From an archaeon (GTDB lineage Archaea; Nanobdellota; Nanobdellia; Pacearchaeales; GW2011-AR1): DNA of 64,000 bases. Below are positions 1 through 24,594 of the stretch, in pieces; within the stretch, counting starts at the first letter, position 1; each line of letters opens with the position of its first letter. The DNA is taken from NCBI GenBank assembly GCA_018653485.1, contig JABHZE010000006.1, positions 1 to 64,000 of the forward strand, in the 5' to 3' direction. The translations under genes were made by a program, and so were the position numbers. The notes below the pieces were generated by a model. That model searched no databases. It was not told the DNA's origin and saw only the letters and a program-made list of their open reading frames with translations.

Positions 1-3000
1 AAATATATAATCGTTCGTTATCAGCCTCGGAGATATCTGAACTTTATACAAAAGGGTTGGCTAGAATTGAAAGACAGAATGTTACTGAATATATTCAGAA
101 CTGGACAGGTGAAGAGAATAAGACTTATGTTAGTCCTCTTAGTGTGACGGCTTCAAAGAGTGGTTATGTTACTTATTTGAATACTTCTGTGAACCAGAGT
201 GTGAATTTAGATATGGCTATTTCTATGAGTGGGCTTTCGAGTGTTAGTGGTTGTGGTAATTTAGATGAGGCTGGGGTTTATACTCTTTCAGGGAATGTTA
301 GTTCGACTGGGACGTGTTTTAATGTAACTGCAGAGAATGTGACTATTGATTGTGGTGGTTATGAGATAAATTATAGTTATGGTGGGGTTTTGGGGTATGG
401 GGTTTATAGTGAGATGTTTAATACGACGGTTAGGAATTGTGTGATTAAGACGGGAAGTGCGACGACTAGTAATAAACATGCTGTTTTGTTTGAGGGCAAT
501 AATGCAAATAATGGGACTGTTTATAATAATACAATTATTACAATTGGGCGCGCTGTAGGTATAAGGTTGCTGGAAGGAGCATCGTCTTCTCCATCTTATA
601 ATGTAATTGATAGTAATGTTATTATGACTTCTGGAAGTTTTGGACAAGGAATTGAGTTGTATTCAAGTTATGGACCTGTGTTTTATGGTAACAGAATGAT
701 TAATAATAATATTACAACTTCTGCGACTTATGCTTATGGTGCTTTTTTTAGAAATACTGCGGATACATTGTTTGATAATAATACTGTTTTGACTTCTGGA
801 GGGGGACATTCGTATGCTCTTTTATTTCAAGCAGATGGGGCGTATGGTAATTTAGTAACTGTTAAGAATTCAAATATTAAAACTACTGCTAGTGGTGGTA
901 CATCAGTAAATGTGCCATTGGGTATCTTGATCGCTTATGGAGATCAAAACATAACGATTATTGATAGTGTGATTAATGCAACTAACCAGAAAGATATTTA
1001 TGTTATGGATAATCTTGATTCTGGTTCTTTGAGGTTGTTGAATGTGAGTTTTAATAAAAGTGATGTTTTGATTGAGGATAGTGATTTTGAGTTGCAGGTT
1101 GAGTATTATCTTGATGTTCATGTAAATTCTAGTTCTGGGTTGGATATTGAAGGGGCTAATGTGACTATTAAGAATAATACTGCTGATGTTATTTGGAGTG
1201 AATTAAGTAATGCTAGTGGTTGGTTGCCTACTAGATTGAACTTAACTGAATATACTCAGAACTGGACTGGAGAGAGTAATAAAACATATCATACAAATTA
1301 TACATTTACTACTTTTGCAACAGATTATTATGTTGGAAGTGATAGTTTGAATTTGACTAGTTCGACTATTTATGATATTGAATTAATTGGAGCGATATAT
1401 GAACGGAGTGCTCTTGGTTTGACTACTAATAAAAATACTGTTAATTATAATGAGAATGTTAATTTGAGTATAACTATTCCTTCTGAGAATTTGGGGAGTA
1501 ATACTTTGAGTAGTGTTTGGGCTGTGATTAGTAAGCCAGGTGCAGGTGTTGAGAATGTTAGTTTGGAGGGGAATGTTGCTGGAGGATATTGGAATGGAAC
1601 ATATACAAATACCTCTGGTGTTTTGGGTGATTATGTTGTTGGATATTATGCTAATATTACTACAGGTGTTATGTTGTTTGAAGATGTGAGTGCGAACTTT
1701 AGTGTTCAGAATACTTCGATATCTGTTGTTCCTGAAAATCTTGTTGTGAATACAACAGATGTGATTAATGTTATGGGGCAGATTAATAGGACAAATTCTA
1801 CAGGTAGTTGGAGTATTAATGATAATTTATTTTTAATGAAAATAAATAATGTAAGTGTTTCAAGTGATGTTTATAATGATAGTAGTTTTGTGGGGGGGAC
1901 AGGGAGTGAGGTGAATGTTAGTAATGTTGTGCAATTGAATTTAAGTTCTGAGGGTAATGTGCTTAATTATAATGACACATATGCAACTAATGGATTTTTA
2001 TCTGATAATTATTCTAGTTATATGCCTGGTTATAGTGGTGCAGGAGGTATTTTATTTGATGATAATATTGGTGGAGGATTTGTAGGTAATGTAACTTATA
2101 AATTTACAAGTGTGACTAAATTTTATAATGCAAGTGTTTATGTTGGAACTCAAACTGCTGCAGATGGAAGTGATGGTAGTGGAAATACAAGTGTGTGGTA
2201 TAGCTCTGATTATAGTAGTTGGAATTTTGTTGATTCTTCAACAACTCAGGGAGTTTTGGTTGGAGGGGTTTTAGATATTGATGGTTATAGTGATGTTTAT
2301 ATTAAAATACAATCAGATATGACTGGTGGTGAAAATCCTGTAACTAATTTAACAATTAATAAAACTAGTTATAATTATGATTCTCTTGGTAATTATGTTT
2401 CTGGAAGTATTAATTTAGCTAATGTAACTTATACTACTTTGAAATGGACAGAGAGTTTGAATGGTGGAGATATTAATGTGCAGTTAAGAGAGAGTGATGA
2501 TGGTAGTGCTTGGGATAGTTGGAGTAGTAATTATACAAATAGTTTGACAAATGATATATCTAGTTTTACAAAAGATTATGTTCAGTATAGGGCTTGGTTT
2601 GAGACTTCTAACTTAAGTAGAACTCCTGTTTTATCTGGAATTAATATTAGTTATTTTAATGCTTCAACTAATTCAACTGGTGGTTATGATTATAATATTA
2701 CTATTCCTACAGATACTTTAGGTCCTCAAGATTTAGAAGTTTCTGTTGTTAATAATCCTACAACAGGAATTGTGGGTGCAAACACTACAAGTGTAACTGT
2801 TTGGGCAAGGACAAATGTTACATATGCTGTTGAGAAGAATTATTCACAAAGTATATCTAATTATAGTGTGTATGTTAATTTTACTAGAACAGATACTGGT
2901 GCTTTAGTTCCTGGAGATGTGAATATTAGTATTAGTAATAGTAGTAGTTTATGGAGTTATGTATGTTCAGGAGTTACTCAATGTGTTGCATCATGGCTGA

Positions 3001-6000
3001 TTCCAACAAATGTTAAATATGGAAATTATACTATTAATATAACTGGAAGTAATGAAACTGGTTATTATATTAATTCATCAAATGGATTTGAAGATTGGTT
3101 AGAGCAAAGGAATACTACTGGAGTTAGTAATTTAGAAAATAGAAATATTAGTGATTTATCATTTGGAACTCCATATAGTTTCTTGCATAATTTTACTATT
3201 AATAATACTGGAAATGCAAGTATGTATGATGTTTATGTTTGGGATGCAAATCCTAATGCAGATGTTTCATTTGCTGATTATACTCCGTGTACTAGAATTT
3301 ATCCTAATCAATCTTGTGATTATGTTTTAAATATAACTCTTGCAGATAGTACTTCTGCTGGAACTTATGAGCAAACTTTAAGGGCTAATTGGAGTGATAA
3401 TGATGGTAGTATTAGTGGTGGAAGAAGTCCGGCTTATTTCCAAGAGTTTATGGATATTGTTGTAGAATCTAATGCAGTTATGTCATTGAATATCTCTGAT
3501 TATAATTTAAGTATGCAACATGAATCTAATTCTAATTTTAGTTTCTTGGTTCAATCTACTGGAACATCTCCTGTTGTCTCTACAACAATATCTTTTGTTG
3601 AAGGAAATATTAGTGCTGGAAATAATTTATCAGGTTCTTGGATTAATTTTATTCCATCTAGTATTGCTTCTATAAATCCTGCCTCAGATAGTTCTGTTAT
3701 TGCAAATATAACTGTTCCTGCACAAACTGCTCCTGGAAATTATTCTGGACAAATAAAAGTTTTAGCTTTAGCTGGAGGAACTAAATATCTTAATTTAACT
3801 CTTGAAGTATTAACAAATAAATCTTGGAGTATTAATCCTTCAAGTGATTTATCTAATAATAATACTTTTTCATTAAATACTGCAGGAGCAATAGGGAATT
3901 ATACTGTTACTAATTTAGGAAATGTGAATCTTAGTTTTAGTGTAGGTTATTTGCCTTCAAGAACAACAGATTATACTGCTATTCAAGGATTATTTTCTCA
4001 AGATAATACAACTTATATTCCTGGAAGTGTTTTAAATCCAACTAAGATAAATGTTAGTAAGGGTGGAAATACTACTATTCCTGTTTATCAATTAGGGGAT
4101 GATGATTCTTGGAATGATATTGGAATTAATATAACTGTTTCAAATGCTAGTGCTTCACCTACAAGTTATACTGTTCAAGATAGTTGGTATATTATCCAAG
4201 CACCTCCTGAGGTTTCTAATATTTATTTTACATGGGAAAATATTTATGGAAATAAAGCTGAAGTGAATAAGCCCGTGGTTATTAAAATGAGAACTACAGA
4301 TGATATTAGTGTTAATACTACTACAAATGTAACTAAGATTAATGTTACTTATGGTGGAACAACCGTGGTATTAAATGCAACTGATTTGTTTGGTGTGTTT
4401 GGGGAATATACTGGAGGGGCTGGTTCAACTACTGTTCTTAATTTTACTGCAAACTTTACTCCTACAATTGCTGGAATACATTATGTTGTTGCAACTATTT
4501 ATGATAATGGTGGGAATTCTAATTTTTCATCAACTTATAATTTTACATCTTATGCTACATCAAATGTTCAATTAAGTCAGAATATTTCAAATCATAGTAT
4601 TGTAGATATTAATCAAGATAACTTTCATTTGTTTTATGTTAATTATACTTTGAATAATACTGGTGAAGTTTATGCTTATCTCCCTAATATTACTTTTAGT
4701 AAAAATGATAGTGTAATTGATATTATTCCTAGTAATTATTTGTTTAGTAATATGAGTAATGGAAGTAAGAGTAGTTATGGATTTGGAGTTAATGTTAGTG
4801 AAGGTACTCCTTCTGGTACTTATGATATTACCTCTACTGCAAGATGGAAAAATCCAGATAATAGTATTGGAAGTGATTCTGAAGTTTTGAGTGTTATTGT
4901 TGCTTCAAATAAATCATTTAATTATTCTCCTAGTAGTTTGAATTTAACTGTTTCTACTAATGAGCAGAATTCAACAGTTTTGACAATTAATAATACTGGA
5001 AATGATGCTTTAACTAGTGTGAGTTTAGATTGTTATACTGTTAGTTTATGTGATGACTTTACTTTTTCTGCTAATGCTTCTGGGTTTAGTATTCCTGTTG
5101 GAGGTTCTAGAAAAGTAAATGTTAGTTTAAGTGCTCCACAAGGTTTAACAGGAGGAGTTTATGTTGGAACTATAAATATTAGTGGTAGTGGTGTTTCAGA
5201 TACAGTTAGTATTCAAGCAGAAGTTCCTTCAAGTTATACTTGGAATGCTACACCATTATCTGTGAATGCTACTAAAGGAACTTCACAAACAGGAAATTTA
5301 GGTGCAATAAGTATTTCAAATACAGGTAATATGCCTTTGACTTTTAATTTGTCAAGTACAAATGCTTCTACTATACAACCAAATATGAGTACAATTACAG
5401 TGCCTGTTTTATCTAGTGGAAGTTTTAATATAAATTATTCTGCTCCAGATAGTGAGGGTAGTTATTTTGAAAAGATTTTAATTACAAATACTTCATATAC
5501 TCCAAGTCAATTAAATGTTAGTGTTAATTTAACTGTTACAAGAATTAATACAACTATTTTATCTCCTACTAGTGCAAATAATCTTAGTAATGTTAGTGTA
5601 GGTGATTTAATTGAGATACATGTTAATGCAACTTATGGTGATGAATTAATAACTAATAGTTCAAATTGGAGTGCAAGTATTGGAGGCAGTTCTTGTTCTA
5701 ATTTGAGTTATGAATATCTTAACTCTTCTGTTTATTGGAATTTAACTTGTAATGCACCTTCTATAACAGATGGTTTAACTTATAATTTATCTGTTACTTT
5801 AACTCATGAGAGTTATGGTGAAATAAGTCAAACCTCTACTAACTCCATAATTTATAGGGATATTACTCCTCCTTATTTTAATGTTACTAGAAATAATGTT
5901 AATCTTGGAAGTAATATTAGTCTTCAAGTTAATGTAACTGATAATGCTGAAGTAGGTAATGTTTGGTTTGATTTAACTTATCCAAATGCTAGTATTTATA

Positions 6001-9000
6001 ATTGGACAAATGTTACAAATACTTTAATGTCATTATCTGGTGGAAATTATATCTTTACTGGTTTATTATTAAATTTAGCAGGAGAGTATTTAGTTAATTA
6101 TTCTGCTAATGATAGTACTGGAAATTTAAATTCTACTCTTGATTGGTTTGAAGTTAATGATAAATATAATTGGTTATTTAATTTAGTTAATTATGATAGT
6201 GATGGGGTGAATAATGTTAATATTAGTTTGCGTCGTCCTAATACTACTACTCTTTTGGTTAATAATGTTAGTAATTCAAGTGGAAGTGTTGTCTTAAATG
6301 TAAATAAAAGAGATTATGATTTGCATGCCAAAATTTCTACAGATACTCTTATTACAAGAAATATTAATTTTACAAATGTAACTACAAATAATATTACATT
6401 TAATTTGCATAGGCTAGGTGTTGATGAATTATCTGAAACAGTTGCATTACATAAAGTGTTCCAAGGAATTGCATCTAATTCAAGTGGTTTGAGTTTGAAT
6501 GATGTTTCTGCTGTGTTTAATTATTCTGGATTGTCTTATGATAATTCAAATGAATTAAGGGTTGTAAAGTGTGCTAGTTGGAATTATACTGATAGATCTT
6601 GTTTGGGAACTTGGAGTAATTTAAGTTCTTCAATTGATAAGGATTTATTAGAAGTAACTGGAAATTCTACTGGATTTAGTTCTTACTTTTTAGCTGAAAA
6701 TAAATGTAGTAATGGATTATGTGAAGGAACTTATGGAGAAACTACTACTACTTGTCCTGCAGATTGTATAACTACTTCTAGTGGAACTAGTAGTAGTTCT
6801 GGTGGGGGTGGTGGAGGTAGTAGTGGTTTAAGAAGTGCTGATTTAGATAAGATTGAAGAAATAATAAAAAGTTTCTTAAATATTGGTGGAATTAAATTAG
6901 AAACTGTTTCAATCTATAAAGAATTATTTGTAGGAGAAACAACTACTTTTAGAATTCATTTGAGAAATACTTTAGATAGTGAGAAAACTATTGAGATGAG
7001 TACTGATGGAGATATTGCAGGATTGATATTTTTTGAATCTAGTAGTATAACTCTTGAATCTAAGGAAGAAAGAGATGTTTTGATAAAGATTGTTGCACCT
7101 AGAACTGCTGAACCTGGAAACTATGATGGTGATTTGATTTTGAAATCTGGTGAAGAAGATGGTTCTATTCCTGTTACAATTAGAATTTTATCTCCTGAAG
7201 GTAAATTATTAGATGTTAAAATTCAACCATTAACTGCGTCTGTTCGTCCTGGTGATGTTTTGAGATTACAAACTGATTTATTGAATTTAGGAAAAACAAA
7301 AAGAGTGGATGTTCAATTTGATTTACAATTATTAGATGTAGAAACAGGTGAAATTATTACTCGAAGTGAAGAGGCTTTTGCAGTTGAAACTACTATAAGT
7401 GCTATAAAGAATTTAACTATTCCTGAAGAGACTGCTCCAAATAGATATATGATTAAGGCTACTGCTTATTATTCTAATGTTGAACAAAGTATGCAGGCAA
7501 GTTCTATTGCTTATATCATGGTTCAAGAACCTTTCTTTTTGAGAAGTTTAGTTGGGATTCCAGTATGGGTTTATTTCCTTGTGTTTTTAGTTGGAGTTTT
7601 AGCTATAGGTGGAATTTCTTATCTAAGATATCTTGACTTTAAGAAGAAAAGGTTTAAGGTTAAAGTAGATTCTACTAAACTTCCTCATCCTAGTCCTCAT
7701 TCTGGATTTGTTGGAAAGATTGCAGAAAGTGATATGAGAACATTTGTTGATATGAATAAATTACAAACTCATACTTTAATTGCAGGTTCAACAGGTAGTG
7801 GAAAGACTGTTGCTGCTCAAGATGTGGTTGAAGAAGCTTTGATAAAGAAAAAAGGAGTAATAATCTTTGATCCAACTGCTCAGTGGACTGGATTTTTGAG
7901 AAAAAATACTGATAAAGGAATGTTTAAGAGATATGGTTATTTTGGAATGAAACCAAAAGACGCAAAAGGATTTAATGGAAGTATTAAAACAATTAGTGAT
8001 CCTTATGAGTTAATTAATATGAAGAAATATTTGAATAGACCTGGTGAGATTACTATATTTAATGTGAGTCATTTGACTCCTAAGCAAATAGATGTAGTTG
8101 TAGCAAGTACTATTGAACAAGTGTTTAAATCAGAACCAACAGAAGCTAGTGAATTAAAGACTCTGATTGTATATGATGAGGTTCATAGATTATTACCTAA
8201 GTTTGGTGGAAGTGGACAAGGATTTATCCAATTAGAAAGAGGAGCAAGAGAGTTTAGGAAATGGGGTATTGGATTAATGTTGATTTCGCAGGTTTTGAGT
8301 GACTTTGTAGGAGAGGTTAAAGCAAATATTGGAACTGAAATACAAATGGGGACAAGGTATGAAGGTGATTTAGAAAGAGTTAGTATGAAATATGGTGAAG
8401 ATGTTTTGAAGTCTGTTGTTAAAGAACCTGTTGGAACTGGAATGGTTACTAATGCAGAGTATAATGCTGGAAGACCTTATTTTGTAGCGTTTAGACCTTT
8501 AATGCATAGTACAAAGAGATTAACAAAAGCAGAGTTGAAGAATTATGAAAAGTATTTCCAAGAAACAGAAGATTTGGATTATCAATCTGCAATGTTAGAG
8601 AAACTTGGAGTTGATACTCTTGATTTGAAATTAGAATTAAAACTTGCAAAACAAAAAGTTAAATCTGGACAGTTTAGAATGGCTGAAATGTATTTAGAAT
8701 CTTTAAGGCCTAGGTTTGAAGAAAACTGGAAAACATTAGGTAAGAAGCCAATGCATGTTGTGAAAAAGAAGATTGATAGGGCTACTGTCTCTGAAGGAAT
8801 CTTAAAGGCAAAAGCTGAGAGAAAGAAATATGTTTCAAAGAATCCTGAAAAGGTTCAGTCTTTTGATCAAGAGGTTCTTGATTTAAAGAAATTAATTGAA
8901 GAAAAAAAGAGGGCTGGAAAGCAAACCTCTTCGGTTGAATTAAAACTAACTGATTTAAAGAAAAGATTAAAACCATTTAAAGGAAAAATTTCTGCAAGTG

Positions 9001-9062
9001 ATGCAAAAGGAATGAGTGCAGAAGTTGAAGGTTTGAAGAAAGAGATTAAAGGTGTGAAGTGA
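1..9062 (+). CDS. Giant surface protein fused to a cytoplasmic HerA/FtsK-type ATPase (5' end outside window)
   Basis: The frame is open to base 3, so the gene begins upstream. The TTG at 57 is not a credible start, because the residues before it continue a domain that recurs at about 1170-1300 (both copies contain TEY.QNWTGE.NKTY). Numbering from 57 there are about 3000 residues. These are a beta-helix-like region (about 75-330), many sequon-rich Ig/NEW3-like repeats, a Cys motif ending CPADC (about 2225-2245), a Gly/Ser linker (2247-2257), a stalk module (about 2257-2495) and a transmembrane segment (about 2503-2524). The cytoplasmic part has Walker A GSTGSGKT (2577-2584, nt 7785-7808), Walker B TLIVYDEVHR (D2707, E2708), a downstream LMLISQ sensor-like strand and a charged helical tail. 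HerA-family ATPases form hexameric translocases. Joining one to an extracellular fibre suggests a motor-coupled adhesin or translocation device (inference). ATPase assignment is firm; substrate unknown. Confidence 0.9.
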   Translation, partial: IYNRSLSASEISELYTKGLARIERQNVTEYIQNWTGEENKTYVSPLSVTASKSGYVTYLNTSVNQSVNLDMAISMSGLSSVSGCGNLDEAGVYTLSGNVSSTGTCFNVTAENVTIDCGGYEINYSYGGVLGYGVYSEMFNTTVRNCVIKTGSATTSNKHAVLFEGNNANNGTVYNNTIITIGRAVGIRLLEGASSSPSYNVIDSNVIMTSGSFGQGIELYSSYGPVFYGNRMINNNITTSATYAYGAFFRNTADTLFDNNTVLTSGGGHSYALLFQADGAYGNLVTVKNSNIKTTASGGTSVNVPLGILIAYGDQNITIIDSVINATNQKDIYVMDNLDSGSLRLLNVSFNKSDVLIEDSDFELQVEYYLDVHVNSSSGLDIEGANVTIKNNTADVIWSELSNASGWLPTRLNLTEYTQNWTGESNKTYHTNYTFTTFATDYYVGSDSLNLTSSTIYDIELIGAIYERSALGLTTNKNTVNYNENVNLSITIPSENLGSNTLSSVWAVISKPGAGVENVSLEGNVAGGYWNGTYTNTSGVLGDYVVGYYANITTGVMLFEDVSANFSVQNTSISVVPENLVVNTTDVINVMGQINRTNSTGSWSINDNLFLMKINNVSVSSDVYNDSSFVGGTGSEVNVSNVVQLNLSSEGNVLNYNDTYATNGFLSDNYSSYMPGYSGAGGILFDDNIGGGFVGNVTYKFTSVTKFYNASVYVGTQTAADGSDGSGNTSVWYSSDYSSWNFVDSSTTQGVLVGGVLDIDGYSDVYIKIQSDMTGGENPVTNLTINKTSYNYDSLGNYVSGSINLANVTYTTLKWTESLNGGDINVQLRESDDGSAWDSWSSNYTNSLTNDISSFTKDYVQYRAWFETSNLSRTPVLSGINISYFNASTNSTGGYDYNITIPTDTLGPQDLEVSVVNNPTTGIVGANTTSVTVWARTNVTYAVEKNYSQSISNYSVYVNFTRTDTGALVPGDVNISISNSSSLWSYVCSGVTQCVASWLIPTNVKYGNYTINITGSNETGYYINSSNGFEDWLEQRNTTGVSNLENRNISDLSFGTPYSFLHNFTINNTGNASMYDVYVWDANPNADVSFADYTPCTRIYPNQSCDYVLNITLADSTSAGTYEQTLRANWSDNDGSISGGRSPAYFQEFMDIVVESNAVMSLNISDYNLSMQHESNSNFSFLVQSTGTSPVVSTTISFVEGNISAGNNLSGSWINFIPSSIASINPASDSSVIANITVPAQTAPGNYSGQIKVLALAGGTKYLNLTLEVLTNKSWSINPSSDLSNNNTFSLNTAGAIGNYTVTNLGNVNLSFSVGYLPSRTTDYTAIQGLFSQDNTTYIPGSVLNPTKINVSKGGNTTIPVYQLGDDDSWNDIGINITVSNASASPTSYTVQDSWYIIQAPPEVSNIYFTWENIYGNKAEVNKPVVIKMRTTDDISVNTTTNVTKINVTYGGTTVVLNATDLFGVFGEYTGGAGSTTVLNFTANFTPTIAGIHYVVATIYDNGGNSNFSSTYNFTSYATSNVQLSQNISNHSIVDINQDNFHLFYVNYTLNNTGEVYAYLPNITFSKNDSVIDIIPSNYLFSNMSNGSKSSYGFGVNVSEGTPSGTYDITSTARWKNPDNSIGSDSEVLSVIVASNKSFNYSPSSLNLTVSTNEQNSTVLTINNTGNDALTSVSLDCYTVSLCDDFTFSANASGFSIPVGGSRKVNVSLSAPQGLTGGVYVGTINISGSGVSDTVSIQAEVPSSYTWNATPLSVNATKGTSQTGNLGAISISNTGNMPLTFNLSSTNASTIQPNMSTITVPVLSSGSFNINYSAPDSEGSYFEKILITNTSYTPSQLNVSVNLTVTRINTTILSPTSANNLSNVSVGDLIEIHVNATYGDELITNSSNWSASIGGSSCSNLSYEYLNSSVYWNLTCNAPSITDGLTYNLSVTLTHESYGEISQTSTNSIIYRDITPPYFNVTRNNVNLGSNISLQVNVTDNAEVGNVWFDLTYPNASIYNWTNVTNTLMSLSGGNYIFTGLLLNLAGEYLVNYSANDSTGNLNSTLDWFEVNDKYNWLFNLVNYDSDGVNNVNISLRRPNTTTLLVNNVSNSSGSVVLNVNKRDYDLHAKISTDTLITRNINFTNVTTNNITFNLHRLGVDELSETVALHKVFQGIASNSSGLSLNDVSAVFNYSGLSYDNSNELRVVKCASWNYTDRSCLGTWSNLSSSIDKDLLEVTGNSTGFSSYFLAENKCSNGLCEGTYGETTTTCPADCITTSSGTSSSSGGGGGGSSGLRSADLDKIEEIIKSFLNIGGIKLETVSIYKELFVGETTTFRIHLRNTLDSEKTIEMSTDGDIAGLIFFESSSITLESKEERDVLIKIVAPRTAEPGNYDGDLILKSGEEDGSIPVTIRILSPEGKLLDVKIQPLTASVRPGDVLRLQTDLLNLGKTKRVDVQFDLQLLDVETGEIITRSEEAFAVETTISAIKNLTIPEETAPNRYMIKATAYYSNVEQSMQASSIAYIMVQEPFFLRSLVGIPVWVYFLVFLVGVLAIGGISYLRYLDFKKKRFKVKVDSTKLPHPSPHSGFVGKIAESDMRTFVDMNKLQTHTLIAGSTGSGKTVAAQDVVEEALIKKKGVIIFDPTAQWTGFLRKNTDKGMFKRYGYFGMKPKDAKGFNGSIKTISDPYELINMKKYLNRPGEITIFNVSHLTPKQIDVVVASTIEQVFKSEPTEASELKTLIVYDEVHRLLPKFGGSGQGFIQLERGAREFRKWGIGLMLISQVLSDFVGEVKANIGTEIQMGTRYEGDLERVSMKYGEDVLKSVVKEPVGTGMVTNAEYNAGRPYFVAFRPLMHSTKRLTKAELKNYEKYFQETEDLDYQSAMLEKLGVDTLDLKLELKLAKQKVKSGQFRMAEMYLESLRPRFEENWKTLGKKPMHVVKKKIDRATVSEGILKAKAERKKYVSKNPEKVQSFDQEVLDLKKLIEEKKRAGKQTSSVELKLTDLKKRLKPFKGKISASDAKGMSAEVEGLKKEIKGVK

Positions 9063-9219: not shown

Positions 9220-10944
9220 ATGTTTGATTTTTTAAAAAAAGGTGAGAGTGGTGCAATCCCTGATGTGGGACAGGAAGATAAATTTGAAGAAAAGAAAGTA
9301 AAGAAAGCTTCTATTTTGAAAAAGGTTTTAAAGAAAAAAGCAAAGGCGACCAAAGCTCCTGTAAAGAAGAAAGTTGAGGGTGTTTCTAAGTCTGGAGATT
9401 CTGAGGGTGCTGGAGAGGTTTCTGATGCTGAAGCAAAAGTGGCTCCTGTTGTTAAACCAGGGGTTAAAGCTAAGGTAGGAGTTGGTGCAACTCCAGGAGT
9501 TAGTAAATTAGAGTTAGATAGGGTTAATGCGAGAGTTGAAGCATTACAATCTTTATTAAAAGGTTATAATGAAAGATTTTCTATGATTGGACAGCAAATT
9601 GGAGAAGTAAGGGCAATGAATCTTGCTACTGAAAAAACTATTTCTAGGTCTAAAATAGAATCTGCTAAGGCAGCAGATATTGTTAAGGAAGTAAAACCAG
9701 ACAAATTAAGATTAGATTACCAAAAAATGGATATGAAAGTTACAACTCTTTCTGAGAAGATAGAAGCAAATAATCAATATGCAAAAACAATTATGAATGA
9801 AGTAAAAGATTTAAGACAAAAGGCACAAGTCTTTCTTGGAACTGATGCAATATTGCAATTAAATGATGATGTTAAAAAAGATTTAATTGAATTGCAAAAA
9901 TTAAGTGCAAGAGTTAGGATAAATGCAGATAAATCAGAACAATTATTTATTGAGTTAAGGGAAGGATTTGCAGATAGTCAAAAATTAGCAGGAATGGTTA
10001 CTAATTTAGATAGTTTTACTGCAACTATTAAAGAAGAAGTAGATAAATTAAAGTTAGACCATAGCCAGATTATAAATCAAAAAGAATATGGTGCTTTTCA
10101 AAAAACAGTTAACAATAAATTTTTAGGTATTGATGCAACTATTGAAGAAGTTGAAAAAATTAAAAGTGAAAATGAAAGATTAAGTAAGGTTATTGAGAGT
10201 ATTTTTTCAGTTGTTAAGAAAAATCAAGATGAAGTTGGTGAGTTGGGATTAAATATTGGGAAGAGTGGTATTAAAAAAGTAGATGATTATGATGGTAAAC
10301 TTCTGGAACTTTTAAGGGTTATGGAGAAAATTGCAGGAGAAGTTAAGGAATTGAAAGGTGAGAGGGTTAAGAGTGTGGGAGTTAAGAAAGTTGTTAAACC
10401 TAGTATTGTTAAAAAAGAGAGTGTTTCAGAAGTTGCTAAACCAATTAAGAAAACAAGAGGGGTTCGTGATGTTGCAACTATAAATGAATCTGCTAAAAAA
10501 TCTGTAGAAAAACCTAAACCTTTGAAACCTCTTGTTCCAGTTAAAAAAGTTGCTGAACCTAAAATAGTGAAGAAAGAAGTTAAGGGGGAAAAATTAGAAA
10601 TAGATAGTATTGAGAATGAGTTAAGGGATATTAGAAAAAATTTAGGATTTTCAGATGTTAAAAAGAAAAAGACTAAAATAGTGAAGAAAGAAGTTAAAAG
10701 TGAGAGTAAACCTGCGAAGAAAAAAATTGATGTTAAAGGTTCTAAAAAACGTAATAATTCTTGGATAAAAAAGGCTATGAAGACTAGAAAAGAAAATGCA
10801 AGAAAGAAAGAAGAATTAAAAATTTCTAGACTTAAAAATCTTAAAAAAGCAAGAGCTGCTAAAAAACGATTAAAGGCAACTAGACTTAAAAATCTTAAAA
10901 AAGCAAGAGCTGCTAGAAAAAAGTCTTTAAAGAAAAAAAAGTGA
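9220..10944 (+). CDS. Lysine-rich coiled-coil protein with a repetitive basic tail
   Basis: 574 residues with no signal peptide or membrane segment, so probably cytoplasmic. The ATG follows GAGGT (9209-9213) at normal spacing. A Lys/Ala/Val-rich head (1-90) is followed by predicted coiled coil (about 95-390), a Lys/Pro/Val linker, and a strongly basic C-terminus with two copies of RLKNLKKARAA (about residues 537 and 555). The coiled-coil section is faintly reminiscent of archaellum accessory FlaC/D/E-type proteins, which I cannot confirm. It is the first gene after the adhesin-ATPase giant, as the coiled-coil gene at 57297 follows another giant. A cytoplasmic scaffold for the membrane complex, or a nucleic-acid contact through the basic tail, is possible. 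Function unknown. Confidence 0.85.
   Translation: MFDFLKKGESGAIPDVGQEDKFEEKKVKKASILKKVLKKKAKATKAPVKKKVEGVSKSGDSEGAGEVSDAEAKVAPVVKPGVKAKVGVGATPGVSKLELDRVNARVEALQSLLKGYNERFSMIGQQIGEVRAMNLATEKTISRSKIESAKAADIVKEVKPDKLRLDYQKMDMKVTTLSEKIEANNQYAKTIMNEVKDLRQKAQVFLGTDAILQLNDDVKKDLIELQKLSARVRINADKSEQLFIELREGFADSQKLAGMVTNLDSFTATIKEEVDKLKLDHSQIINQKEYGAFQKTVNNKFLGIDATIEEVEKIKSENERLSKVIESIFSVVKKNQDEVGELGLNIGKSGIKKVDDYDGKLLELLRVMEKIAGEVKELKGERVKSVGVKKVVKPSIVKKESVSEVAKPIKKTRGVRDVATINESAKKSVEKPKPLKPLVPVKKVAEPKIVKKEVKGEKLEIDSIENELRDIRKNLGFSDVKKKKTKIVKKEVKSESKPAKKKIDVKGSKKRNNSWIKKAMKTRKENARKKEELKISRLKNLKKARAAKKRLKATRLKNLKKARAARKKSLKKKK
10826..10915 (+). repeat. 36-nt perfect direct repeat coding an 18-residue basic repeat
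   Basis: The 36 bases at 10826-10861 recur exactly at 10880-10915, an offset of 54 bases (18 codons). They encode the duplicated RLKNLKKARAA element in the basic tail of the coiled-coil protein. Perfect identity points to a recent duplication or homogenisation. Confidence 0.9.
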
Positions 10945-11001: not shown

Positions 11002-14000
11002 TTATTCTAACCCTTCTTCTATTTTCTTTAATCGGGTATCAAATAATCCTTTTTTAGTTTCTACTATTTCTTTTTTTGAAGATTTGGTTTTTGAGGTAGA
11101 CATTTGTTTTGAATTCATGAAATTAATTATATTTAGTTTTTTGTAAAACATATATGCTACTCCAACTATAACTAAGATTAAAATTATAAGTAATATTATT
11201 ACTATTATTAATACTTTATTTTCTGAAATCATTGAAGGTAGTTCTGTTTCTTTAATAGGTTTAATTTTATCAAGACACTCATCTGCTTTTTTAATATTAT
11301 CTTCAGCGTTAATAAATTCTTCTTTTTCTATGTTTGATTCAATTTCATTTGCTATTTTTTCACAAACATTTAATTCTTCTAATTGTTTTTCTTCTTGTAT
11401 TTCTTCTTTTAATTCTTTTATTTTATTTTTAATTCTCTCTAATTCTGATATAAAGTAATCTTTCATTGTTAAAACTACTAGTCTTCCAGATTCTCTTTTT
11501 TCAGTTTGATCTGTTTTAATCACATAATCAAAATCATATTCTCCTAAAAAGTTTTTAACTAACCATGTTATTTGAAATTCTTTTGTTTCTTTAGGTTTTA
11601 ATGAGTTTATTGTTAGAGGATTTATAGTATATATTTCTTGATTTAGTCCTTCTAAATTTAATGTTATTCCTGTTAGCTCTTTATCCCCTGTATTTTCAAT
11701 TGTTAATGTGGTTGTTTTTTCTATATTTTTTGTTAAAGATATTGGTTTTTCTACATAGATTCTTAAATCTGTTTTTTCAGTTGGAATTGTTATTGCTCCT
11801 CCTCCACCGCCTCCTCCACCTGTTGAAGGTGCAGTAGGACAAGCTCCACAATCTGCAGGACATGTTGAACATGTTTCAGTGCCATTACAAACAGCATCCC
11901 CACAATTAGAACTATCTGTTGTTGTAAATGTAGAATAAGCTCCTGCTTTTTCTGAGAATGAAGGGCCATAATATCCTAGGAAAGTTATTTTTACTAATCC
12001 TGTATAAGTTGTTGTAGGATTTACATACCAAGTTAAAGTTGAAGTTGCAGGAACCATTCTTGTTTCAGAACCTGTATCTAGAACAGCGTTATTATCTATC
12101 CTTGTTAAGTTCCAAGTTAAGGTCATATCTTTATTTGCTCCACCTGTATTTTCACTTATCACTGAAATGTTTAGATTTGAAACATCTGAATTTAAAATAG
12201 TAATAGTTCTTACATCAAAAGGGCCTCCTGTTACTTTCCAAAATTCGTGAGCATAATAAGGGGTAGAGGATTTTGTTGCATTGATTATTGTTTCCCAGAT
12301 TCCTTCTGTTGCTGAAGCTCCTACTGCATAAGTATAATTATAAATTCCTGCTGTTGTTTCTGCAGTCATTGAAGCTGGACCTACTATTGTGCTTCCACCT
12401 GCATCAATTATTGTTATTTGCATTGAATCTGCAGAAGTATAAGTTCCTGAAGATGTAAAGTAGGATTCAACATAATAGTTTGTTTGAGTTACAACTTCTG
12501 GTGAACCTGCAACTGTAACAAAATTTCCCCCTCCAACTGCAGAGGTTACTTGAATATTAAAATTTGAAGATTGCCATGAGTTAGAGTAATCATCTGTATA
12601 AGTTATGTTTAAAGTATAGGTTGCTTCTGTTATTGGAACTGAAATAAACCAAGTTGCATTTTTAATTTGATTTGCATTGAAATTTCCTAGAGAATTTGTT
12701 TGAGGATAATCTGATAAAAAAGTAAATCCTGTTGGAGTATTTAATACTGCATCTACTCCTGTTAAAGCATCTGTTGCATTTAATTCTCCTGTTATTTTTA
12801 TTGTATGGTAGGGTAATGCAGTTGAGGGGTTTTGCTCATTTTGAGTTGTTGCATTTGGTGCTCTGATTGTAAATTGTTGCCAAGAAATTGAATCATTTAT
12901 ATTTCCTACACTATCATTTGCATAAACTTTGAATTGATAAGTTCCCTCTGTTGTTGCTGTCCAGGTTTTGTTATAAGTTATTGCAGAGGTATTTGTCATT
13001 GTTAAATTTGTTTGAGGGGTAGTGTTTATTGAAACCCAAACAGTATCCATATTAGAATCTGTAACATTTGCATAAAATTGAATAGTTTCTCCTTCAGATA
13101 TATCTGAATCAATCCATTGAGAAGTGATTAAGGGATTATCAGTATCTATTATACTTCTTACATTAAAACTTGCATCAGAAGAATCATTAGATGTTGAATA
13201 AGAATCATTTAAAATTAATGTTAGGAAATAAGTTCCATAAACTCCTAATGAATTCCAGGAATAAGTACAAGGATTTGCTGTTGCTGTATCTGAATCAGCA
13301 TCGGTACAATTAGCAGTTAGATTAATATTTGAAACTATTAAATTAGTTGTAGAATTTTGAGTTTCTCCATAATAAAGATTTCCAGTCAAGGTATCTGAAT
13401 CAGAATCTGTAACATTGAAGGTTACTAAATAGTTTCCTTGGGATTGATTTACTGTTTCTCCTCCATTAGGTTGTTTGACTAATGCTGTTGGTCTGTGATT
13501 CATATAAAAATAACTACTGCTTATTGTTGAACAATTACTTGCATCACAGACAGAGGCATAAAATGTTGTAGTTCTATTCTCTGTCGATTGAATTGTATAA
13601 GAACATGATGAAGGGCTTGAAGATTCAAATGAAGTATTACAAAAAGTTGTTGCATTACAACCTGATTGATTTATTGCAGATGAATTACAAATAAATAATT
13701 GTCCTGAATTTGATTCTAAGTCTGTCCAGTTTACAGTTATATTTACTTGTTCTCCTACTTGCTTTGGATTTGCTAATGAAGAATCTGTTGAAATATTATT
13801 TATTGAAGGAGGGGCATTATCAAAATGTTCAATTATTATCTTAGGTCTTTGAGCAGATGTTGCTGATTCTGATGATGAAATGTAGGTGTAGTTTCCTACT
13901 TCTGCATCTGTTGATATTAAAATTATTCCATAGTTATTATAAGAACCATTAATCCATCCCCTAGTTGCAGTAGTTATTGAAAAATTATAATATTTTGTTG

Positions 14001-14490
14001 TTTGATTTTCAAATATTACTGAGTCTAATTCTTCTGCATAATCTCCTCCTGCAGAAGTCCAAAGGTTTGAAGAAGTAAAATTATTCCATGTTGCTTGTGA
14101 TTCTATCCAATTGTTTGTTACTCTATATGCCTTGATAGTTAGATTATCAGTATTATATGCATTTTCTACATATACTTGTAATTTTGCACTTGAGATTGTA
14201 TCATCTGAATCTATTGAAGAGATATTAAATTTTATTAAACTAGTATAATTTGTACCTAATCCTGCAGAAATTCTTCCCACTCTTAAATTTATTCCAGTTC
14301 CATAATTATTGTTTGCAAGAGATTCTCTTAAATAAGTATCATTTATTGTTGAACCATCAACTGGAGATTGATAAATAACATAACCTGTTAATGAAGGGTT
14401 TTGAAGATATAATATAGGGAAGATAAATATTGATGCTATAAATATTAAACTGATTAAAGTTATCACATGAGGGATTCTCTTTTTTTTCAT
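11002..14490 (-). CDS. Surface protein with N-terminal DNRLRE domain and C-terminal membrane anchor
   Basis: 1162 residues. A basic N-terminus and hydrophobic segment (about 8-30) are followed by SLTGYVIY (33-40) and then a DNRLRE/CBM96-like domain (about 40-215). The latter has the typical DTYLRE....NYG start and a conserved SATWNNFT..LW section. Ig/fibronectin-like repeats rich in Asn sequons follow. A Cys cluster (NCGDAVCNGTETC..CPADCGACP, about 862-885) precedes a Gly8 linker, a NEW3-like membrane-proximal domain, a charged helical segment, a transmembrane helix (about 1090-1113) and a Lys-rich cytoplasmic tail. The layout (Cys motif, Gly linker, stalk, anchor) parallels the first gene of the window. 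The gene is convergent with the coiled-coil gene at 9220. It probably presents a carbohydrate-binding head outside the cell (inference). Confidence 0.85.
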   Translation of the reverse strand: MKKKRIPHVITLISLIFIASIFIFPILYLQNPSLTGYVIYQSPVDGSTINDTYLRESLANNNYGTGINLRVGRISAGLGTNYTSLIKFNISSIDSDDTISSAKLQVYVENAYNTDNLTIKAYRVTNNWIESQATWNNFTSSNLWTSAGGDYAEELDSVIFENQTTKYYNFSITTATRGWINGSYNNYGIILISTDAEVGNYTYISSSESATSAQRPKIIIEHFDNAPPSINNISTDSSLANPKQVGEQVNITVNWTDLESNSGQLFICNSSAINQSGCNATTFCNTSFESSSPSSCSYTIQSTENRTTTFYASVCDASNCSTISSSYFYMNHRPTALVKQPNGGETVNQSQGNYLVTFNVTDSDSDTLTGNLYYGETQNSTTNLIVSNINLTANCTDADSDTATANPCTYSWNSLGVYGTYFLTLILNDSYSTSNDSSDASFNVRSIIDTDNPLITSQWIDSDISEGETIQFYANVTDSNMDTVWVSINTTPQTNLTMTNTSAITYNKTWTATTEGTYQFKVYANDSVGNINDSISWQQFTIRAPNATTQNEQNPSTALPYHTIKITGELNATDALTGVDAVLNTPTGFTFLSDYPQTNSLGNFNANQIKNATWFISVPITEATYTLNITYTDDYSNSWQSSNFNIQVTSAVGGGNFVTVAGSPEVVTQTNYYVESYFTSSGTYTSADSMQITIIDAGGSTIVGPASMTAETTAGIYNYTYAVGASATEGIWETIINATKSSTPYYAHEFWKVTGGPFDVRTITILNSDVSNLNISVISENTGGANKDMTLTWNLTRIDNNAVLDTGSETRMVPATSTLTWYVNPTTTYTGLVKITFLGYYGPSFSEKAGAYSTFTTTDSSNCGDAVCNGTETCSTCPADCGACPTAPSTGGGGGGGGAITIPTEKTDLRIYVEKPISLTKNIEKTTTLTIENTGDKELTGITLNLEGLNQEIYTINPLTINSLKPKETKEFQITWLVKNFLGEYDFDYVIKTDQTEKRESGRLVVLTMKDYFISELERIKNKIKELKEEIQEEKQLEELNVCEKIANEIESNIEKEEFINAEDNIKKADECLDKIKPIKETELPSMISENKVLIIVIILLIILILVIVGVAYMFYKKLNIINFMNSKQMSTSKTKSSKKEIVETKKGLFDTRLKKIEEGLE

Positions 14491-16859: not shown

Positions 16860-16881
16860 AAACTCATAAAAAGAAGTGAAG

Positions 16882-19800
16882 ATGGTGCATAAAAAATATA
16901 TAAAAAAGAATGGTAAGACTTTTGGGCCTTATTTATATGAGAATTATAGGGAAAATGGTAAGACTAAGACTAGATATATGGGGATAGGAAAGGAGGATTC
17001 TGAAGGAATGGGAAAAAAGGGTAAAAGTGGTAAAAAGGGTGGGAATTCTAAAAAAGGATTGGATATTCATCATGTTTTTTGGACTTCTTTGTTGATAATC
17101 TTTTTAGTTTTAGTTTTTAGTGTTGGAGGATTTTTATTAAGTGGAGGTTTAGGAGAAAATGAATTAAAAGGTGAATTGCCTAGCCAATCTGTTGATGTAA
17201 CTCTTAATTTAATGGGAAATGCTCCGCCTGTGATAACAAATTTGGATGAAGAGATTTTTGTTTGTGAGAATACTGCTTTGAATAATTTGTTTGCTGTTGA
17301 AGATTTAAATGCAGATGCACTTTCATTGCAGTTAGATAATAATGTGGAAGGATTATTTTTTGTAAGACCTTCAAGTATTTCTGCTGGAAATGTTTATTCT
17401 GATGTAGAATTAGTTAGTTTAAGAAGGATTATTAAAAGCGATTTTGATAATTTAAATGAGGGTTGGAAAACTCATTCTGTAATTGTTAGTGTAGATGATG
17501 GTGATGAAATGGATTCTGAGGAAGTAGATATAACCTTAATTGAAGTGAATAATCCTCCTGAAATTTTAAATTCAGATTCAATGACTTTTGAGATTTGGAT
17601 TAAAGGGGAGAATAGTACTCTTGATCATAATGTTTTGGTTTTAGATAGAGAAGACGGAAGTGGTAGTTCTGAGGAGATTACTTTTAGTTTGAATTGGTTA
17701 GAAGATGAATTAATTGGCAGGGAAGAATTATTTGGAATTAATGATGAGGGGTTGATGGAATTTGCTCCGAGTTTGGAAGATATTGGGGTTTATCATATTA
17801 CTGTATGTGTGAATGATAGTGGATTAGATAAAACTGCGCATGAAAATATTGAATTATGTTTAGAAGGAAATCCTGCTCAATCAAATGAAAATTCTGGTAG
17901 TTGTGAGGTATTGCAATTAACAATTACTGATAGAAATAGGGCTCCAGAAATTGTTTCTTATTATCCTATTGAAAATAATTTTAATGTAAATGGAAATGAT
18001 GTTTTAGTGTTTAATATTACTAAAAATGATGCAGATGGAGGTATTCCAGATGCATATTGGTATGTTGATGAGGAGTTAAAAGAAATGGATAAAGGAGAGG
18101 ATATTGATGAATTTATTTTTAGTTTTGGTTGTGGGGTTTCTGGAGAGCATAAGGTTAAGGCTGAAATAAGTGATGGTTTATTAAATAATTCTGTTGAATG
18201 GAATATTAGTGTTAATGCTGTTACATGTCCTACTCCAAATCCTGGAGGAGGAAGTAGTACTGGTGGAGGAGTTAGTTTTTGTAATGAAAAATGGGCTTGT
18301 CATCAATGGAAAGAGTGTAGTAATTTTGAAAATAATCAGGGAGGATTGAGTGATGAAGCAAAATTATTAGTTCAAGAAAGATGTGATAGTTTAGATTATA
18401 ATACTGAATTTTGTGGATTTCAAGAAAAAGAATGTTCTGATTTAAATAAATGTGGAAGTTTTAAAGATATTCCTGCTACAATCAGGGAGTGTTATTATAC
18501 TGTGAATCCAAATTGTGAAGATGGAATTAAAAATTGTCATGATGGAAGTTGCGAAGTATTAGTGGATTGTGGTGGAAGTTGTAATGCTTGTCCAACTTGT
18601 TTTGATAATATTAAAAATCAAGATGAAATAGGTGTTGATTGTGGTGGAAGTTGTAATGAATGTCCTGAAACTCCTCTTGCTCCTCTTGTTTTTAAGGGTA
18701 TAATTAGTGTCTCGTTTATTTTATTATTAATTTTAGTTATATTATTAATTATTAATCAAAGTTATAAATATTTTAAGATTAAAAAAGAATCTAGAAAAAC
18801 TCCTGGAAAATATTTTAAGAAATATTCAATGGTTTTTTTAGTATTTTTTATGGGAGTAGTTGTTTTGAGTTTTATAATTGGAGGTTTAGGGATTATTGGT
18901 TCTGATAGGATTGTTTTAGAAGAAAGTGCAGGTTTTGGAACTTATAGTGTTTTGAATCCTGTTATTAGGGGATTGGGTAATTTATTTTCAATTAATGTGA
19001 TTACAACAATTGTTGAATTAGGAGCAGATAGTAAATTAACTGTTTGGGATGATACAGATGATAGTGAGATTGAGAAATATAGTTATTGTGAGATTGGAGT
19101 GGAGTATTGTAGTGAAAAAGGAAAAAGAGATTCTAGTTATTGGGATGTAAAATTTTATGTAAATTATAGTGATATTAATGGAGGGCCTATTGTAGGAAGT
19201 ATTTGTGAAATTGTTTTTGATAATGAAGCGCCAATAGTAATGGAGTATAGTTCTGGAACAACATTATGGGAATATACTAGAAATTTTAATGATAAGGGGG
19301 ATAAGGATTATGAGGTTAGTTGTTATGAAGAAAATCATGACCCTTTAGAGATAGGTACTAATGTTTATATAACTAATACTGAACCTTTTGTTGTTAAAGA
19401 ACCTAATGGGCATTTAAGAGGAAGTTTAAAATGTATTGAGGATATTGTTTGTTATTATGATTTTGATGTGAATGTTAGTGAAGATGATTTGAGTGATAAG
19501 GATAATCTTTTTTATAGTTTTTCTGAGTTAAATACTACTTTGACTAATTTTACTATTGATGAGGATGGTTATTTAACTGTAAATGTTACTCATAGTGATT
19601 ATACTGGAGTAGGTGTTGGTGAAAATGGGGATGGGAAAACAATTCAATTGACTGTTAGTGATGGGGAAGGTTCTATTTCTTCGGCTATATTAGATGTTGA
19701 AATTGAAGAAGTTAATGACGCTCCTGTTTTTACTAATTTAGAGAATAAAGAATTTAATATGACTGAATTATTTGAATATACTATTCTTATTGAGGATGAA

Positions 19801-22800
19801 GAAGAGAATTATCTTTTAGAAGATTTTAAGGTTGATTTTTTAGATTGTACTCCTGCAGATTGGAGTGATAGGGTTGATTGTGATTTATTTGGTGAAACAG
19901 ATTATTTATTTGATGAAATTAGTAATTTGTTGGAAATTAGTTTTACTCCTTCTAGAAATGATGTTGGAAATTACACTATTAATTTTAGTATTTCTGATTC
20001 AAGTATTCCTGGTTCAATGCATTTATTAGGGAATTCAATTAGAAGTCATGTTGTTGTTTTTAATGTTTCAGTTATTAATGAGGCTCCTGTTTTTGAATAT
20101 GTTTGTGATAATGAGAGGGAGGGTGTTGAAGATGTTGCTTTGAATTGTGTTATTAGGGCTAAAGATGAACAAGAACAAAAAGCCTTAATTTTTTATTCTA
20201 ATTTAAGTTGGTTTTTAGATGAGCAAGAGGTTGATTGTGATGTTTCTACAAATTATTTGGCAGAGATTGTTAGTGTTATGACTCCAAGTGATATTCATGT
20301 TGGAAATCATTCTATTAATATTAGTGTAATGGATAGTGGAAATCCTTCTAAGATAAATTCAACTGAAATATGGTTTAATATTGAGAATGAGGATGATGAA
20401 GTTATATTAAATGATATTAATCATGAGAATATTGTTGGAAATGTTTATTCAGATTATGTTGGTAATGAAATTTCAATTAATATTAATGCAAGTGATGAAG
20501 ATTTATTGATTCCTCTGAGTAATAAACCGGAAGTTTATCAGGAAGAGATAAGTTTTAGTGTGGAAGATCTTGAGGGGAATGAGATTGATTGGATAAATAT
20601 TTTGCATTGGGTTGTTGGAGAAGGGGAAAATATTGCAAGGGCTTCTTTAAAAATAGGGGCTGATTTGGCTCCAGGTTATTATGAAATAAATATTATTGCA
20701 AAAGATAAAAATGAGTTTTCTGAATCTGTTAAGCAGTTAGATATTGAAATTCTTGGAAATTCTGCACCTAGTTGGAATGATGTTGAAATTTATGATTATG
20801 AATTAACAGAAGATGATGGATTTTATTTAGATATTAGTAGTTTTGTAAGTGATGCTGATGGGGAAGGTGTAATTTTTGGGATTGGAGAAGATAGGGGAGA
20901 TAGCTTTCCTTCATTTAGTTTAACTGAAAATGGAATTATTAGTTTTACTCCTGGTGATTTAGATGTTGGTTTTTATGCTGTAGAAATAATTGCAGATGAT
21001 GGAAAAAGTCCTGTTGGGAGGATTTTTAATTTGGATATTGAGAATATTAATGATGTTCCAATCATTGTACTTCCATTAAGTTTTGATAATGTTAGTGGAG
21101 TTGGCCCATATTCTGTTGTTGAAGATGATTTTGTTGGAATTTATGTTTTTGTACAAGATGATGATTATATGATTCCACAAAAAGATTATTATGATGAAGA
21201 TGTGAATTTTGAAGTTTCTATTGTTGGAGAAAATAATGAATTATTTAGTTTTGTAGGGGATGTTAATTATCCTGAATCTGGTGGTAATTTGATTAAATAT
21301 GATGCAAATTTTATTCCTGAAAAATCAGATGTTGGAGAGTATAGTATTAATATTAATGTTGAGGATTTAAATGCTGAGAGTGATAGTTATGTTTTTGATT
21401 TATCTGTTTTTGAAGTTCCACATAATCCCACTTTAATGGAGTTTGATAATTATAGTTCTAAGCCTGGAGAAGAATTTTATTTAGATATTAATGCAAGTGA
21501 TAAGGAGGATGGGGAAGATGATTCTGGAAATTTAGTTTATAGTTATGAGTTTTTAGAAGGTGATGATTTTATTAATTATGATGAGAGTGTTTTTAATAGT
21601 GTTAATGGGGAATTGAGTAAGAGTTTTGATGTTAATGATATTGGAAAATATCATTTGAATATTACTGTTACTGATTCTGAAAATTTAGAAGATAGTGGTG
21701 ATTTTTGGATTTTTGTTTATGGAGATGTTGATGGTAATTTGGGATGTGGTTTGGATTTAAAAGAAAATATAATTTCTGAAATTAGGTTTAGTGGAAATCA
21801 TGAAGTTGGAAATAATCTGAGTTATAATTTTTATATTAATCAAAGTTTGAGAGAGAGTATTAGTTCTTTTGGGGATGGTAGGAATATTGTAATGAATTTT
21901 ACACCTAGTTTTGAAGATGAGAGTTATGAGAGTATTTTAAAGAATTTTAGTTTATTAATTTTTAATTCTGTTTATCCTGAGTTAAATAAAAGTGTTTCTT
22001 GTAATGTTGAAATTGAGCATACTAATGCTCCTGTTAATTTTAGTGGATTTATTGGAGATAAGGCAACTACTTATAATAATGAAATTGAAATAGATTTAAA
22101 AGATTATTTTTATGATGCAGATAGGGAAGATAGTTATTATAATCAAGAAATGGAGGTTGTTATTTCTAGTTCTGATATTGCTATGAGGATGGGTGATAAT
22201 TGGACTTTAATTTTGTCCTCTACAGGAGTTATTAAGGAAATAATTAATATTAGTGTTAGTGATGGAGAATATAATGCTATGAGTAATGATTTTGAGATTG
22301 AATTTTTTAAACCTCCAGTTATAGTTGTGAGTAGCCCTAGTAGTGGAGGGAGTACTACTAGTACAAGTGGAAGTGTTATCGCATTAAAATTAATTGCTCC
22401 AAAATCTGTTTCAGCTTTTGAAGGGGATAGGGTGGAGATACCACTGGTATTAGAAAATAGTGGGAAAGGAGATTTTAAAGAAATAAAATTAACTAGTTCG
22501 GCATATAAGGATGGAAGTATTGCAAATCGTGTTGAAACTAGTTTGGGTAAAGATTCTTTTGAAATTTTGAAAAGTGGTGAAAAAGAAGAATTTAATTTAA
22601 GTGTATTTTTTGATACTGATAAAATTGGAGATTATGAAATTTTTGTTAGATTGAATAGTAAAAGTCCAAAATATTCTGATTGGGCAAAGATACATATTAA
22701 TTTACAAAGAATTAATGAATCTGAAGTTAAGGAATTGATTTTATTTACAGAGGAATTTATTGTTAAAAATCCTGAATGTATTGAAATAACTGAGTTGATT

Positions 22801-23076: not shown

Positions 23077-23102
23077 TGTGTTTATGATAAATAGAGGTGA
23101 AA

Positions 23103-24593: not shown

Positions 24594-24594
24594 A

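Follow-up and report, generated by a model that had tools for sequence, protein, structure and literature searches.

A giant SPEARE-type surface protein from a Pacearchaeota-type archaeon with a HerA-like ATPase domain and a recurrent coiled-coil neighbour

Genes and features at the locus

We analysed a stretch of 64,000 nucleotides, referred to here as the window, whose base 1 is also base 1 of its contig (G000:C3). It opens inside a giant gene whose 5′ end lies beyond the contig edge. The features discussed below are the following, with their positions and strand.

3–9062, plus strand: SPEARE-type giant (ectodomain, transmembrane helix, HerA-like ATPase, C-terminal helices), 3,019 codons without a stop, 5′ end open at the contig edge
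3–56, plus strand: putative final residues of a laminin-G-like domain, truncated at the contig edge, from a motif match
3–7562, plus strand: sequon-rich ectodomain, residues 1–2520
7116–7523, plus strand: two juxtamembrane all-beta (Ig-like) domains, residues 2372–2507, in the AlphaFold model (block pLDDT mostly 83–96)
7563–7646, plus strand: transmembrane helix, residues 2521–2548 in the model (3,019-residue numbering)
7701–8525, plus strand: HerA-fold ATPase domain, residues 2567–2841, from Pfam, profile, model and Foldseek
7785–7808, plus strand: Walker A motif GSTGSGKT; Lys 2601 aligns with HerA K154 and is Lys in 88 of 88 relatives
8175–8180, plus strand: Walker B Asp-Glu (YDEVHR, around nucleotide 8175); Glu 2726 aligns with HerA E356 and is Glu in 84 of 88 relatives
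8247–8267, plus strand: REFRKWG motif; Arg 2752 aligns with the HerA trans arginine finger R381 and is Arg in 88 of 88
8526–9050, plus strand: C-terminal helical region behind the ATPase, from the model
9220–10944, plus strand: gene for a long-helix, coiled-coil partner protein of 574 aa, with a conserved gapless 186-residue core at 9502–10059
11002–14490, minus strand: surface protein of 1,162 aa with an N-terminal TM/signal, a Disaggr_repeat ectodomain, a C-terminal TM and a short cytosolic tail

An earlier reading had placed the start of the giant at a TTG at position 57, which is not the true start, since the window opens at contig base 1. The first residues of the frame (IYNRSLSASEISELYTKG) resemble the final part of a laminin-G-like domain, because the Laminin_G_3 domains of a relative from genome G092 finish in the same motif. 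This end motif at the contig edge is all that the window protein, as cut, retains of laminin-G; the relative carries Laminin_G_3 in six stretches. The G092 protein is complete, with 6,233 aa, and colinear with window residues 426–3015 at 55% identity, which suggests that the window protein has lost roughly 3,200 residues at the contig edge. At its N-terminus (L176, G092:C79) the relative shows a signal sequence and then an Intein_splicing-like stretch (3.1e-8, just under the cut-off) that ends in HN|T, a possible remnant of self-processing at the tip of the giant.

Regarding the composition of the ectodomain, we counted 158 sequons (N-x-S/T) over 2,480 residues, where shuffled sequences gave 65.3 ± 6.6 (z 14), and two in the cytosolic part against 1.3 in shuffles. 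An NPCBM-associated/Ig-like domain was called at residues 1654–1726, and no protease family was found by domain search of the 5′-cut protein. The sequence-only reading had described a sequon-rich ectodomain of more than 2200 residues and the architecture of a surface adhesin, and our data support both. It had also placed a single TM segment at about 2503–2524 (in a 3,001-residue numbering), in agreement with the one segment given by hydropathy at 2517–2535 and the model helix at 2521–2548, both in the 3,019-residue numbering. The AlphaFold model covers the last 678 residues and was built on an alignment of 88 sequences (A2); with a mean pLDDT of 91, it contains two all-beta domains, a long TM helix, a RecA-like ATPase and C-terminal helices.

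Relationship to the SPEARE proteins

The same initial reading knew of no described system of this shape. The architecture had in fact been published as SPEARE (PMC6642349 in 2019, PMC8470020 in 2021 and PMC10266531 in 2023), and ideas of attachment and transfer had already been put forward. Hamm et al. 2019 coined the name (PMC6642349); they interpreted the cytosolic part as a type III restriction enzyme and also pointed to relatives from Woesearchaeota, Aenigmarchaeota, Micrarchaeota and Altiarchaeales. The cytosolic end was later re-read as a VirB4/TraG-like ATPase, and a secretion straw was proposed (PMC10266531).

PMC8470020 lists SPEAREs of 12,127 aa (MAG KA27) and of 8,146 and 3,105 aa (MAG KA24). 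We found frames of 12,127 aa from an ATG in G114 and of 3,105 aa from an ATG in G110, together with an open frame of 8,146 aa at a contig edge in G110 that matches the third published length. From these exact lengths we infer that they are the published KA27 and KA24 proteins. Our family profile matched them with E-values of 1.8e-155 (12,127 aa), 1.7e-151 (3,105 aa) and 2.5e-171 (8,146 aa).

The window giant shares with the SPEAREs of Nanohaloarchaeota and EX4484-52 a giant adhesin-type ectodomain (Ig-like, with LamG in relatives), a C-terminal TM, a cytosolic ATPase and C-terminal helices. It is a very long, mostly extracytoplasmic protein (at least 3,019 aa despite the 5′ cut, with a relative of 6,233 aa), and its conserved cytosolic domain, which follows the C-terminal TM, is homologous to that of known SPEAREs. 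Hence, it is almost certainly one of the DPANN SPEARE proteins. It differs from them in its origin, as the published members come from Nanohaloarchaeota and EX4484-52 and this one from a Pacearchaeota-type genome, and in the assignment of its ATPase, here to HerA and in the earlier papers to a restriction enzyme or VirB4. SPEAREs are further characterised by adhesion domains and one or more laminin-G domains in the ectodomain, of which the 5′-cut window protein retains the laminin-G end motif described above. A serine protease domain formed part of the original definition, whereas none was found in the 5′-cut window protein; its value as a defining feature has been disputed in PMC10266531.

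Size range and distribution of the family

The ATPase query was matched by 26 of 89 relatives, part of them weakly, and 289 stretches were confirmed in a scan of 84,980 genomes. Of the 80 best among these 289, nearly all were titled DPANN or Altiarchaeota, and the rest generic archaea or Euryarchaeota. Within the phylum of the window, 67 of 371 genomes (at least 80% complete) carry the family, counted at a threshold of at least 130 bits, with the next matches at 66 bits or less. A family member was also seen on a 9.4-kb Guaymas contig labelled Nanohalarchaeota (L079).

Family members range from around 690 to more than 12,000 aa, and the ATPase invariably lies at their cytosolic end. The complete ones include forms of around 690–780 aa (ectodomain of about 240–300), forms of 1,150–1,450 aa, and proteins of up to 12,056 and 12,127 aa. 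Complete giants with ectodomain, TM and ATPase in one frame measure 12,056, 12,127, 6,233, 4,862 and 4,617 aa, and such uninterrupted frames recur across many independent assemblies, in line with the original proposal that ectodomain and ATPase form one chain. In the ATPase tree, the giant state costs 4 changes against 17.9 in shuffles. The window protein groups there, in a supported clade, with Pacearchaeota-type giants and truncated frames.

Genome G075 holds three family members. The 12,056-residue open frame (L042+L053+L054, G075:C23) has the same ATPase and, unless its start is later, a winged-helix-like stretch in frame upstream of the TM.

Assignment of the ATPase to the HerA clade

The sequence-only reading had recognised Walker A GSTGSGKT and Walker B YDEVHR, which lie at nucleotides 7785–7808 and around 8175, and had proposed an ATPase of the HerA type. 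In a Pfam search, the giant matched the DUF87/HerA central domain (4.7e-9). When the family profile was compared with the PDB, HerA chains came first (1.5e-14 and 4.4e-14), FtsK and the VirD4-type DotL reached around 1e-3, and VirB4 gave no match up to an E-value of 0.1, so that of HerA, VirB4 and FtsK the nearest is HerA. In a Foldseek search with the ATPase model, ranks 1 to 15 were all HerA chains, the best being 4d2i (4e-12); we judged this search by ranks and E-values, because whole-chain TM-scores and rmsd are uninformative for a model that also holds Ig domains, a TM and long helices.

Mutation has shown K154, D176, E356 and R381 of HerA to be essential (PMC4351679). Besides the Walker residues and the arginine finger listed above, D2623 of the giant aligns with D176 and is Asp in 88 of 88 sequences. 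Profile, fold and catalytic residues thus all support the proposed HerA type, and with high confidence the sequence and the model point to a catalytic motor of the HerA clade; the domain is not a restriction enzyme and probably not VirB4. The assignment of the SPEARE ATPase to HerA looks new.

Sulfolobus HerA (4d2i), the nearest solved structure, shares with the giant the RecA-like core, Walker A and B, the D176 and R381 positions and the SQ motif. Canonical HerA proteins, however, bear an N-terminal domain of their own (the HAS-barrel), which was not found before the ATPase in the AlphaFold model; Ig-like domains and a TM helix are predicted in its place. NurA is absent from the genome of the window, and it was matched in 3 of 55 searched genomes, two of them above the cut-off. 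On the absence of NurA, we ruled out a HerA-NurA repair role.

A coiled-coil protein accompanies the motor

The 574-aa protein encoded behind the giant has a 186-residue core that is conserved across 53 loci. Among the 371 genomes, motor and partner occurred together in 59, the motor alone in 8, the partner alone in 8 and neither in 296 (an odds ratio of about 270, with phylogeny ignored). The genomes with only the partner include G144 and G229, which have ATPase fragments at contig ends. When both genes lay on the same contig, they were within 5 kb of each other in 53 of 56 pairs; the partner was downstream in 42 of 56 loci with room, and we found none elsewhere among 873 genes. It likewise adjoins each of the three SPEARE genes already published (E 1e-32 to 1e-34). 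It is therefore highly likely that the coiled-coil protein is an obligate partner of the motor. No mention of it was found in the accessible parts of PMC6642349, PMC8470020 and PMC10266531, and this near-obligate partner looks like a new addition.

A Foldseek search gave no structural match to the partner. We rejected a relationship to the archaellum collar, as the Pfam matches listed were to generic coiled coils only and Foldseek found nothing, and also a DNA-binding role by means of a basic tail, which is present in just 6 of 53 sequences.

Other neighbours recur as well. The convergent two-anchor protein at 11002–14490 is common to related giant loci. A different two-anchor surface protein is encoded upstream of the motor in 30 of the 45 loci with enough room, and RHH and DUF5752-like proteins are further recurrent neighbours. 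Neither a nuclease or relaxase nor a conserved channel protein with several membrane passes was found beside the family genes. In Woesearchaeota loci, including L072, L080 and L084, we observed a conserved operon of RHH, two-anchor surface protein, short ectodomain-ATPase, DUF5752-like and coiled-coil genes.

Ring formation and altered paralogues

The four exceptions among the 88 Walker B motifs (L100, L106, L118 and L140) read DG for DE, and all four keep Walker A. In L106, L118 and L140, the three altered paralogues examined for it, REFRKWG is intact, and in each of them an intact, shorter paralogue lies upstream of the DG paralogue. We consider it likely that the ATPase domains form a hexameric ring, because they belong by sequence to the HerA clade, the trans arginine finger is invariant, and tandem paralogues that have lost the Walker B Glu have kept the finger. 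The DG paralogues and their intact neighbours are indirect evidence for a ring, in these short-to-mid members only, and suggest that some rings may be mixed, since a non-hydrolysing subunit could still lend its arginine finger in trans.

Possible functions of the motor

The best explanation that we can offer, and one that we hold to be evenly poised, is that the giant is a contact-dependent ring motor with a dedicated coiled-coil partner, perhaps moving DNA. In the topology shown by sequence and model, Sec export places the arm outside and the second TM keeps the ATPase inside, where six ATPase domains may assemble into a ring in which adjacent subunits share their active sites. The arms, which in relatives contain LamG and Ig-type domains, could bind the surface of another cell. 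At contact, the ring might use ATP to move a polymer across the membrane; the likeliest cargo is DNA, since this is what the characterised HerA-clade members act on. The coiled-coil protein would serve the ring as adaptor or scaffold, with accessory roles for the two-anchor surface proteins encoded nearby.

We favour transport by analogy with TdtA and the Ced ATPases. TdtA of Thermus thermophilus is a HerA-like, membrane-binding hexameric ATPase without which cells in contact do not donate DNA (PMC5365140). CedB and CedD, which take part in archaeal DNA import, are membrane-anchored proteins whose C-terminal ATPases are of the HerA/VirB4 type, and the two paralogues are used together (PMC11868833). 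The likeness is partial: no ectodomain fusion has been described for TdtA, which has a NurA-family nuclease neighbour and works in the transjugation route (PMC5365140), and no giant ectodomain has been described for CedB or CedD (PMC11868833). The window protein scores 30.9 bits with CedD against a family cut-off of 600, it has no VirB4-type N-domain, and no CedA channel was seen at the family loci. That the motor transports any polymer at all is possible but falls a little short of an even call, and that it transports DNA specifically is more tentative.

The strongest doubt on transport comes from the membrane. The giants and the forms of around 780 aa begin with signal-peptide-like sequences, and cleavage of the signal would leave one TM per chain; six single helices make no obvious pore, and no conserved channel is encoded nearby. 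A mechanical or signalling role must therefore be taken seriously as an alternative, although we give it clearly less than an even chance. The ring would cluster, tension, retract or signal through the arms, with the coiled-coil protein as a cytosolic scaffold, so that ATP turnover alters attachment and nothing is pumped. The single TM of the giants without a conserved channel speaks for such a role, as do the arms of about 240 to more than 11,000 residues that one conserved motor carries and the fact that the coiled-coil protein is the only near-obligate partner. Against it stands the conservation of the HerA catalytic residues (K, D and R in 88 of 88, E in 84 of 88), and we know of no precedent in the HerA clade for a purely mechanical role at the membrane.

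A further observation counts against our ring motor reading. In PMC6642349, ectodomain and cytosolic peptides of a SPEARE were recovered by proteomics in separate size fractions, perhaps owing to processing or to the preparation; if the processing is real, arm and motor would be uncoupled.

It has also been proposed that the giant is part of a T4SS, in which a VirB4/TraG-like ATPase injects protein effectors through it (PMC10266531). In nanohaloarchaea, the giant is reported there to be followed by a gene for a second ATPase of the VirB4/TraG family, with a PF03135 N-domain, and in our searches the NCBIfam VirB4, TraC and CedD models did match, weakly and far below their cut-offs. However, what lies downstream of the published EX4484-52 SPEARE genes is the coiled-coil gene, and HerA is closer than VirB4 in both sequence and fold. 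The CagE_TrbE_VirB N-terminal domain was not found in the window protein. PF03135 is absent from the window's genome, and at an E-value of 1e-3 or less it occurred in 2 of 55 searched genomes, one of them above the cut-off and neither with the family. As it is missing here and from nearly all searched relatives, a full T4SS partner is not needed in this system; we rejected VirB4/T4SS membership on its absence from the window's genome and hold the proposal to be improbable.

The original reading as a cytosolic restriction or DNA-degradation domain acting on incoming DNA (PMC6642349) is very improbable. A weak Pfam ResIII match (2.7e-4, below the cut-off) probably explains the old label, but it spans the core of the P-loop ATPase, for which HerA is a far better explanation. 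A search for a nuclease domain found none, NurA is absent from the window's genome and from its near relatives, and the reading is also rejected in PMC10266531. Finally, a chimeric contig or read-through that joined a surface protein to an adjoining ATPase gene has a negligible probability: the gene does sit at a contig edge, but dozens of independent assemblies contain the identical fusion, colinearity with the 6,233-aa relative extends across the junction, and the juxtamembrane Ig-TM-ATPase part can be aligned across 88 sequences.

The widest form of the ring motor reading would make SPEAREs the surface subunits of a DPANN-wide, T4SS-independent contact machine, in which a HerA-type ring, sometimes mixed from catalytic and dead paralogues, and an obligate coiled-coil protein transfer DNA between the small archaeon and the host cell; taken as a whole, we regard this as doubtful. 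For the question of how DPANN archaea keep hold of their hosts and exploit them, what matters is that the giant SPEAREs are now tied to the HerA motor clade and to one near-obligate partner gene. Laboratory expression could start from the motor and partner of small members (about 700–1,400 aa), making the question of attachment and transfer testable.

Other large surface genes in the window

Three more regions of the window, all on the plus strand, encode large surface proteins. A second giant gene at 39563–55987 encodes 5,474 aa with 251 sequons and TM segments at 73–91 and 5444–5462; it is without a long cytosolic tail past the second TM and so has no motor domain, and it is possibly a second surface fibre. 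At 16876–26396, a 2,066-aa protein with TM segments is followed by MoxR-type AAA, DUF58 and VWA/BatA genes, that is, a MoxR/VWA-type operon adjoining a large surface protein. At 28202–32956, a protein of 1,584 aa has GLUG repeats and one TM and, unlike the other large surface proteins of the window, is nearly free of sequons (0.2 per 100 residues).
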